Part shown: piece after piece, positions 11,729 to 52,944 of the stretch | How the letters are laid out: every line of letters starts with the position of its first letter | Numbering within the stretch: the first letter of the stretch is position 1 | Source of the DNA: an uncultured Bacilli bacterium | Lineage (GTDB): Bacteria > Bacillota_I > Bacilli_A > RFN20 > CAG-631 | Assembly: GCA_947627355.1 (NCBI GenBank) | Contig: CANQVX010000003.1 | Span: forward strand, 1 to 64,000 | Direction of reading: 5' to 3' | Length of the DNA stretch: 64,000 nt | Position numbers and translations under genes: made by a program | The notes under the pieces: generated by a model | The model's database searches: none | The model's input: only the letters and a program-made list of their open reading frames with translations | What the model was told of the DNA's origin: nothing

Positions 11729-11753
11729 AAAGTGCAATTAATTTTGCACTTTT
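11729..11753 (+). terminator. Terminator after the GH26-like gene
   Basis: A perfect 9-bp stem (AAAGTGCAA with TTGCACTTT) around a six-base loop, followed by a short T run. Confidence 0.65.
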
Positions 11754-11776: not shown

Positions 11777-11802
11777 TTGACTTTGTCGGGGGGGGGTATA
11801 AT
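11777..11802 (+). promoter_or_regulatory. Promoter with a nine-G tract in its spacer
   Basis: TTGACT at 11777-11782 and TATAAT at 11797-11802 flank a 14-base spacer that includes nine consecutive Gs (11788-11796). The present spacer is three bases shorter than the optimum of 17. A second possible -10, TATAAA at 11803-11808, would give a 20-base spacer. A G9 run is very unusual in DNA this AT-rich. Length change by strand slippage would tune or switch the promoter of the ABC transporter downstream. Confidence 0.6.
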
Positions 11803-11822
11803 TATAAAAGGGGCGTGGATAA

Positions 11823-12602
11823 ATGGAAGAAGTATTAGTAGTAAAAAACATTAAAAAGACCTTTAAGTTATCTAAAAAACAACAAAAATTACAAGGTAGT
11901 AATGAGACTTATAAAGTGGCTGTTAATGACTTATCTTTCAATCTTTATAAAGGTGAAATCTATGGCTTACTAGGCCCTAATGGTGCTGGTAAAACAACAA
12001 CTTTAAGAATCATAGCAACCTTAATAAAAGCCGATTCTGGCGACGTTTTTGTTAATGGCTATGATATAAAAAAAGAAGCTGACAAGATAAGAAAATGCAT
12101 TGGTTTTCTAACTAGTGATTTAAAATTAGAAGGCTTCTTTACACCTAATTATTTATATGATTTCTTTTCTGATTTACATAATGTAGATAAAGATATAGCT
12201 AGAACTAGAAAAGAAAGATTATTTAAAAAATTCGGTATTGATAAATTTGCTGAAGTAAAAGTTGAAAATCTATCATCTGGTATGAAACAAAAAGTATCAT
12301 TAGTGATATCAATTGTTCATGATCCGGAAATAATTATCTTTGATGAACCAACCAATGGTCTAGATGTTTTAACAGCAAGACTAGTTATGGATTTCTTGCT
12401 TGAATTAAAAAATGAAGGAAAGACTATCTTACTATCAACTCATATCTTTAGTTTGGTTGAAAGAATTTGTGATCGTGTTGGTATAATTATCAATGGCAAG
12501 ATGGTATGTAGTGATAAATTAGAAGAATTAATTGCAGATAAATCACTTGAAGATGTCTTCTTTGATATCTATAAAAACGAAATGGAGGGAAAAGATTTAT
12601 GA
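11823..12602 (+). CDS. ABC transporter ATP-binding protein, NatA-like
   Basis: A 259-residue ATPase subunit with Walker A GPNGAGKTTT (51-60), signature LSSGMKQK (near 149), Walker B IIIFDEPTNGLD (near 168-179) and an H-loop STHIF. Order and length match the NatA/CcmA-type subunits of ABC-2 exporters. Residues 15-32 are a charged insert before the first strand. The stop overlaps the start of the permease by four bases (ATGA), so the two are translationally coupled. Expression is probably set by the G-tract promoter just upstream. The substrate could be Na+, a drug or a peptide; the sequence does not decide. Confidence 0.93.
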   Translation: MEEVLVVKNIKKTFKLSKKQQKLQGSNETYKVAVNDLSFNLYKGEIYGLLGPNGAGKTTTLRIIATLIKADSGDVFVNGYDIKKEADKIRKCIGFLTSDLKLEGFFTPNYLYDFFSDLHNVDKDIARTRKERLFKKFGIDKFAEVKVENLSSGMKQKVSLVISIVHDPEIIIFDEPTNGLDVLTARLVMDFLLELKNEGKTILLSTHIFSLVERICDRVGIIINGKMVCSDKLEELIADKSLEDVFFDIYKNEMEGKDL

Positions 12603-20583: not shown

Positions 20584-23500
20584 TCTAGAAACATTTTTAA
20601 GCAAAGTACCTTTTTTTAAAGATAATAAAAAAATCACTAAGGATATAGAGGTATCTAATAATGAATCCTTAGCTTTTTTGCTTTCAAATGATTTTTTAAA
20701 TTCACCTAGGACTATGGTTGTAGTTAAAGAAAATCTCTATGAAGCTCAAGAATTATATAATTTGTTATCGTTTTCTTTAAAAGACAAATGTAATTTATTT
20801 TGTGTTGATGAAATAACTAAGTTTACAAGCATTGCAACTAGTCCTGAACTTGAAGCTTCAAGATTATATGTACTTGCTAAAAGTATTATAAATGAACCTA
20901 TGGTTATTATTACTCATACCATGGCTTTACAACGTTTACTTCCAGCTAAATCATTGTTTTTAAAGAAAATTATTAACCTTAAAACTGATGCTGATATTTC
21001 AAGAGGTGAGTTTATTAAATCTTTGATAACCATGGGCTATAAAAATGTTTTACAAGTTGTTCAACCTTTTGAAATGTCAAGTCGTGGGGGGGTCGTTGAT
21101 GTTTATACTATTCAATATGATAAACCACTTCGAATTGAATTTTTTGACGATAAAATCGAGTCAATTAGACTATTTGATGTAACAACTCAAAGAACTGTAA
21201 AAGTTATTGATGAATGTTTAATCATGCCTGCTAGTGAATTTTTAATTGATGATTTAAACAAGGGTATCAGTAATATTCAATCAAGTTTAAATAGACAACT
21301 TAAATATAATGAATCAAATTTGGAACTAGAAGAAAACATTAATGACGATATAAATAAGATACTTAATTATCAATTTGAAGAATCTTTATATCGTTATTAT
21401 TCTTATTTTAATTGTTATGGTTCCTTAGTTGATTATTTTAAAGATGCTACATTTTTTATCTGTAATCGTGAAGCTATTTTAAATAATGCTGAATTTACTT
21501 TAAATGAAACTACTGAAAATGTTTTAGAAATGTTTAACAGTGGTAAAACATTAAGTGATAGCATTTTATTATTTTCAATTGAAGAAGTCTTAGTAAATGT
21601 TAAAAACGAAATAGAAGTAACCATTAATTCAAATGGTTCAATTAATGATGAATTAGATGCTACTCCTATTGATAATTTTGGCGGTAATTACGTCCTTTTA
21701 TGTGAAATTTTAAATGATTGGCTTAATAGAAATTATATAGTTTATATTGGTCTTGAAAAAGAGGTTCAATATGATGCTATTTATAATCTTTTAAAAGAAA
21801 AATCTTATGATGTTATTTTATATAACGATGATAGTAAATTTAAACCTGGTAAGATTTATCTTAGTCATTTCGATCTTCATAATGGAATTGAAGTAAAAAA
21901 TTATAACTTTGTTATTTTAGGTGAAAATGAAATTTATAAGAAACATTATCAAATCAATAGTCAATTTTCTAATTTTAAAGATTCGGTTACAGTTGATGAT
22001 GTTAGTGATTTAAAACCTGGTGATTATGTTGTTGATGAACGATATGGAATTGGGATTTATCAAGGAATTGAAACAAGAGAAACTAACGGTACTCATACTA
22101 ACTGGTTAGTAATTGAATATCAAAATAATGAAACCTTAGAAATCCGTCTTGAATATTTTAGTCGTATTAGAAAATATGTTGGTCCTGAAGGCCATGAACC
22201 AAACCTTGATAGCATTAGAAAACACACATGGACGAAAAAAATGTCTAAAGCAACTGATAATGCTCGTGCTAAGGCAAAAGAACTCGTTAAATTGTATGCC
22301 CTAAGAAGTCAAAAACCAGGCTTTGCTTGTATCAAAGATAACGAACTTATCGAAGAATTTGAAAAAGATTTTGGCTATGAACTTACTGTTGATCAACAAA
22401 AAGCAGTAGATGATATTAAAAAAGATTTAGAAACACCAATTATTATGGATAGACTTCTATGTGGTGATGTTGGCTTTGGTAAGACTGAAGTTGCTTTTCG
22501 TGCGGCTTATAAAATGATTTTATCAGGAAAACAAGTGGCTTTACTATGCCCTACCACTTTACTTGCTAGACAACATTATTTAACAGCCATTGATCGTTTT
22601 AAAAAGCAAGGAATTAGAATTGCTCTTTTAAGTAGAATCGTTAGTACTAAAAAACAAAAAGAAATATTGGATGACTTAAAAGATAATAAAATTGATTTAA
22701 TCATTGGAACACATAGATTATTATCTGATGATGTTAAGTTTGCTGATTTAGGTTTATTAATTGTTGATGAAGAACATAAGTTTGGTGTAACTCATAAAGA
22801 AAAGATAACATCGTTAAAATATGTGGTTGATGTTTTAACACTTTCAGCTACTCCTATTCCTAGAACTTTACAAATGGGTCTTACCAGTGTTAAAAAAATC
22901 TCAATTATTAACACTCCAATTGCTAATAGATTACCAGTTCAAACCTATGTGTTAGAACAAAACGATATTGTTATTAAAGAAATTATTGAACGTGAATTAG
23001 CTCGTAACGGGCAAGTCTTTTATTTACATAATCGAATTGATCAATTACCAGCAGTGTTAAGAAAAATAAACGCTCTAGTTCCTAAAGCAAGAGTTGCAAT
23101 AATTCATGGAAGAATTAATAATCAAACTGATTCTGAATTAAATGAACAAACAATGCTAGCCTTTATTAATGGTGAAATCGACATTTTATTATGTACCACT
23201 GTTATTGAAAATGGTATTGATATTCCTAATGTTAACACTTTAATTGTTGAAAATGCTAATTGTTTTGGTCTTGCTCAACTTTATCAACTTAGAGGTCGAG
23301 TTGGTAGAAGTGATAGATTAGCTTATGCATATTTCTTTTATAACAAAGAAATAAAACTAAGTGAAAAAGCTAGAAAAAGATTAGATGCCATTAAAGAATT
23401 TACATCGCTTGGTAGTGGTTATAAGATTGCTATGCGTGATTTATTAGCTAGAGGTGCTGGTGATTTACTAGGTGAAGAGCAATCAGGATTTATTGTAAGT

Positions 23501-34331: not shown

Positions 34332-34347
34332 ATATTGACAGTGCTAA
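34321..34347 (+). promoter_or_regulatory. CIRCE element (HrcA operator) at htpG
   Basis: TTAGCACTC, nine bases, CAGTGCTAA: eight of nine positions pair in the inverted repeat, as in the classical CIRCE. It overlaps the -35 box of htpG and the start of the divergent hydrolase gene. Confidence 0.93.
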
Positions 34348-34363
34348 AAGCGATGATTATAAT
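34335..34363 (+). promoter_or_regulatory. Consensus sigma-A promoter of htpG
   Basis: TTGACA at 34335-34340, a 17-base spacer and TATAAT at 34358-34363, a perfect match in both boxes and spacing. The -35 box is embedded in the CIRCE element, so HrcA binding would exclude RNA polymerase. Confidence 0.92.
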
Positions 34364-52901: not shown

Positions 52902-52928
52902 TTAGCACTAAACTATTGACAGTGCTAA
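52902..52928 (+). promoter_or_regulatory. CIRCE element 1 of the hrcA operon
   Basis: TTAGCACT, eleven bases, AGTGCTAA, a CIRCE inverted repeat of the usual length. It overlaps the -35 box TTGACA. Confidence 0.93.
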
Positions 52929-52944
52929 AGTACATAAGTATAAT
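52916..52944 (+). promoter_or_regulatory. Consensus sigma-A promoter of hrcA-grpE-dnaK-dnaJ
   Basis: TTGACA at 52916-52921, a 17-base spacer and TATAAT at 52939-52944, the same perfect layout as at htpG. Confidence 0.93.

Follow-up and report, generated by a model that had tools for sequence, protein, structure and literature searches.

The tract of nine Gs that separates the -35 and -10 boxes of a sigma-A promoter upstream of an ABC-2 exporter operon appears to be a slippable spacer tuning the transcription of this operon, a reading to which we assign a probability of about 0.7. The promoter lies in a 64-kb stretch of DNA (here the window) from an uncultured gut bacterium belonging to the Bacilli. 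According to the proposed mechanism, replication slippage would add Gs to the tract or remove them from it, the changed number of Gs would alter the distance between the -35 and -10 boxes, and the rate of transcription of the exporter operon would change with this distance. The assembled state, with its spacer of 14 nt, would be a poor promoter, while 11-12 Gs would bring the spacer to the optimum of 16-17 nt. We infer that such slippage takes place within the population, that it affects exporter transcription and that it may benefit the cell.

The sequence of the promoter region, read directly from the window, is ccTTGACTttgtcGGGGGGGGGTATAATTATAAAAGGGGcgtggataaATG, and its features are collected in Table 1. 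The sequence-only reading had placed nine Gs between TTGACT and TATAAT with a spacer of 14, which was correct to the base. The tract is the sole run of at least eight Gs on either strand of the window, and the two G8 matches observed there compare with a mean of 0.06 in shuffled sequences, in agreement with the earlier judgement that the run was unlikely by chance. When tract lengths of 5-14 Gs were scored with a simple model, the best version of the window promoter was that with 12 Gs, TTGACT-17-TATAAT, three slips away from the assembled one. Thus, the suggestion that three extra Gs would optimize the promoter held. The second suggested route, the loss of three Gs to bring the TATAAA box into use, is unlikely. 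Transcription from the TATAAT box is expected to start near position 11809, at the AGGGG ribosome-binding site, whereas that from the TATAAA box would start at about 11815, past this site, so that the resulting RNA would be devoid of a Shine-Dalgarno sequence.

Table 1. Features at the exporter locus (window coordinates)
Feature	Position	Strand	Details and basis
Hairpin 3' of the upstream gene	11729..11752	+	stem 9, loop 6; dG -10.4, z -3.8
-35 box TTGACT	11777..11782	+	sequence; the sister species has TTGATT here
ttgtc between TTGACT and the G9 tract		+	sequence
G9 tract, adjoining the -10 box	11788..11796	+	sequence; G8 followed by T in the sister species
-10 box TATAAT, 14 nt from TTGACT	11797..11802	+	sequence; conserved in the sister species
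Second box TATAAA, 20 nt from TTGACT	11803..11808	+	sequence; not conserved in the sister species
Shine-Dalgarno AGGGG, where transcription from TATAAT should start	11809..11813	+	sequence, inference
ABC transporter ATPase, PF00005, ATG at 11823	11823..12602	+	
ABC-2 type permease, PF12698	12599..13759	+	

The ATPase and permease genes overlap by 4 nt and hence form an operon. The hairpin is a probable terminator insulating this operon from the preceding gene; a consensus scan reported it on the minus strand, its stem is symmetric, and its plus side is rich in T. Elsewhere in the window, TTGACAGTGCTAA promoters at 34335-34363 and 52916-52944 are embedded in CIRCE-like repeats (TTAGCACTC-N9-CAGTGCTAA), 5' of ORFs that resemble HtpG and HrcA by eye, as is typical of sites of the HrcA regulon.

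In the sister species (genome G001), the same locus carries TTGATT-ttatc-G8-T-TATAAT, again with a total of 14 nt. As most of the remaining intergenic DNA has changed between the two species, the boxes and the tract have been conserved; and as G8 plus T keeps the spacer at 14 nt, the difference within the tract reflects a G/T substitution and no slip. In more distant relatives, no G tract was found upstream of the same gene.

The window promoter is not a one-off, which the sequence-only reading had not noticed, but one of about 11 of its kind in the genome. The genome (G000, 1.57 Mb) contains 16 runs of at least seven Gs; 11 of them are flanked by a TTGAC box on one side and a -10 box on the other, and the remaining 5 are in coding sequences. 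Among the coding runs, one of seven Gs (window 21086-21092) lies in a CDS resembling Mfd, the transcription-repair coupling factor, by eye; the others (L064, L070, L073, L074), some of them in lipoprotein-like genes, may act as switches by frameshifting. The pattern TTGAC-N-G7-N-TANNNT was present in 62 of the 279 genomes searched in the order and in 49 of the 395 searched in the class, whereas the reversed pattern, used as a control, gave none in either set (0/279 and 0/395). Within the class sample, the small-genome families f11 and f22 yielded no G-tract matches, and in the viral contigs, considered as possible strain replicates, there were only 3. The matches listed from the collection scan come from Bacilli, Clostridia, Saccharibacteria, spirochaetes, Streptobacillus and others. 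Many sites also occur in isolate genomes: Streptobacillus notomytis (L118) with 21 and Hydrogenoanaerobacterium saccharovorans An564 (L122) with 9. We found no description of poly-G spacer promoters in this order in the open-access literature.

These data bear on whether the run could be a chance occurrence or an assembly artefact without function. The length of a homopolymer can indeed be misjudged in the consensus of a metagenome-assembled genome; however, the tract is conserved in the sister species, eleven sites occur in one genome, the control searches were empty, and isolate genomes carry the layout as well. As an account of the presence of the run this explanation is already refuted, and we regard it as extremely improbable altogether.

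Signal or lipoprotein starts are strongly overrepresented among the genes that follow promoters of this family. In the genome of the window promoter, whose own target is an exporter operon with a permease, the other family members precede genes for lipoproteins, secreted proteins, a YfhO-like membrane protein, a small membrane protein, one hypothetical protein and a protein that we read as signal-peptidase-like, although it has no Pfam match. An ORF follows closely downstream of 69 of the 83 sites in named genomes. Signal, membrane or lipobox starts, called by a simple hydropathy rule, were found in 54 of these 69 ORFs versus 94 of the 388 other ORFs at these loci (odds ratio 11, p = 1.5e-17). 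The roughly 11 promoters of the genome, mostly placed before surface, secreted or secretion-related genes, may constitute an independently switching set. In genome G601, an array of seven secreted paralogues (L075, G601:C6:7500-27400) has a near-identical G8 or G9 promoter in front of each gene; G-tract promoter copies are also numerous in G554 (about 30) and G371 (13), where they are dispersed, several of them at contig ends. At L075 and L087-L089 (G554), the genes for large secreted proteins, arrayed or dispersed, each have a G-tract promoter to themselves and make up candidate antigenic-variation families in uncultured Bacilli. Tandem lipoprotein paralogues at L062 (G000:C1:186000-190500) have near-identical promoters that are one G apart (G8, G9).

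The total spacers of G-tract promoters spread over 13-20 nt and, in this order, mostly avoid 17 nt. Ordinary promoters of the genus (exact matches with spacers of 13-20 nt, n = 36) peaked at 17 nt, with 19 of 36 at this length, versus none of the 20 G-tract promoters (p = 2e-5). In named genomes the corresponding figures were 44 of 89 for ordinary promoters (a one-mismatch set) and 7 of 83 for G-tract promoters (p = 2e-9). We dropped the idea that this avoidance is universal, since 12 of 70 class sites outside the order and, by hand count, 5 of 21 sites in the Streptobacillus isolate genome have spacers of 17 nt. In the simple scoring model, all 20 genus sites scored better at a tract length one to three slips away, and 19 of them regained 17 nt with a TTGAC-type -35 box; the ABC site of G001 reached 17 nt only via an alternative TTAACT box.

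Many sites have spacers of 18-19 nt, and some contain short inverted repeats, e.g., GACAAATTTTGTC, as if they were long-spacer promoters (18-20 nt) whose spacer is untwisted by a MerR-type activator and in which the G run is incidental. This is very improbable, since a large second group, including the window promoter, has spacers of 14-16 nt, the inverted repeat is missing from most sites, and the targets are unrelated genes across phyla.

The main rival to a slippage switch is that the architecture is fixed: the poly-G spacer would adopt an A-like shape or bind a regulator, and distances of 14-15 or 18-19 nt would work as they are, with no switching. In support of that, the G run adjoins the -10 box (0-1 nt) in 106 of the 127 listed sites, and the tract is on the G strand, with only 8 sites of the C-tract version in 274 genomes. 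Conservation of spacers points in the same direction: orthologous promoters of G000 and G001 had equal totals (14, 18 and 19 nt, all off 17) in 3 of 4 pairs, and among look-alike promoter pairs from different genomes the total spacer was equal in 25 of 64 (39%), versus 24% for unrelated pairs. However, part of the G-over-C strand bias is explained by GC skew, and there is no one working distance, as spacers range over 13-19 nt within one genus. Nor does the number of Gs offset the length of the remaining spacer (r = -0.08). Moreover, copies that share the same sequence upstream of the tract differ by one or two Gs within single genomes: 8/9 in G000, 9/10 in G046 and G371, 10/11 in G035, and 9/10/11 in G554. 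Length differences also occur within the tandem arrays of secreted paralogues (L075). Given also the excess of equal spacers among look-alike pairs, the lengths appear labile, yet not fully scrambled. On balance, we consider a fixed architecture unlikely, and slippage of the tract remains the preferred reading.

Such slippage need not be fast, as MutS is present in G000. We rejected the loss of mismatch repair as its cause: G000 has MutS, and although only 74 of the 274 order genomes searched were MutS-positive, these hold 81 of the 127 listed G-tract sites (phylogeny not controlled). The earlier proposal of a slippage switch at the exporter promoter, its route through the loss of three Gs aside, is supported indirectly but fairly strongly by the promoter family, the surface targets, the length differences between copies and the spacers that avoid 17 nt.

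Switches of this design are known from other bacteria. In porA of Neisseria meningitidis, a poly-G tract lies between the -35 and -10 boxes, and one G changes transcription (PMC3899988). There, as here, a sigma-70-type promoter has the run in its spacer; in porA, a surface gene is affected when a single G is gained or lost (PMC3899988). In contrast, porA is a pathogen gene that was studied singly, whereas about 11 promoters per genome are involved here, in a gut bacterium of the Bacilli that is uncultured and with an exporter operon among the targets. The tp0126 promoter of Treponema pallidum has its optimum at a total distance of 17 (PMC7864442). It likewise has poly-G between its -35 and -10 boxes, in a genome with many poly-G tracts, but belongs to another phylum with a different GC content, and the tracts of T. 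pallidum vary in vivo, whereas those described here are known from assemblies. The vlp promoters of Mycoplasma hyorhinis have been reviewed beside porA as spacing-type switches (PMC3899988). They share with the present family a homopolymer in the promoters of surface-protein genes. The vlp tract is poly-A, unlike the G tract here. The window promoter has a G run between recognizable -35 and -10 boxes and can reach a near-17 spacer at some tract length (n = 12). By this comparison, it is probably a slip-prone on/off switch of the porA/tp0126 type.

The avoidance of 17-nt spacers leads to the prediction that, in the bulk population, most copies of these promoters are off and a minor fraction is at the on length. 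For gut commensals, most knowledge of phase variation comes from invertible promoters. We tentatively suggest, at somewhat less than even odds, that a whole order of uncultured Bacilli of the gut, together with scattered other commensals, has poly-G spacer promoters on its surface and secretion genes and holds them mostly off-optimal, so that each gene is off unless one to three slips turn it on, as a bet-hedging surface programme that operates without invertases. The motif, which a simple pattern search picks up, indicates that candidate surface genes switched by slippage number in the hundreds in lineages for which no genetics exists.
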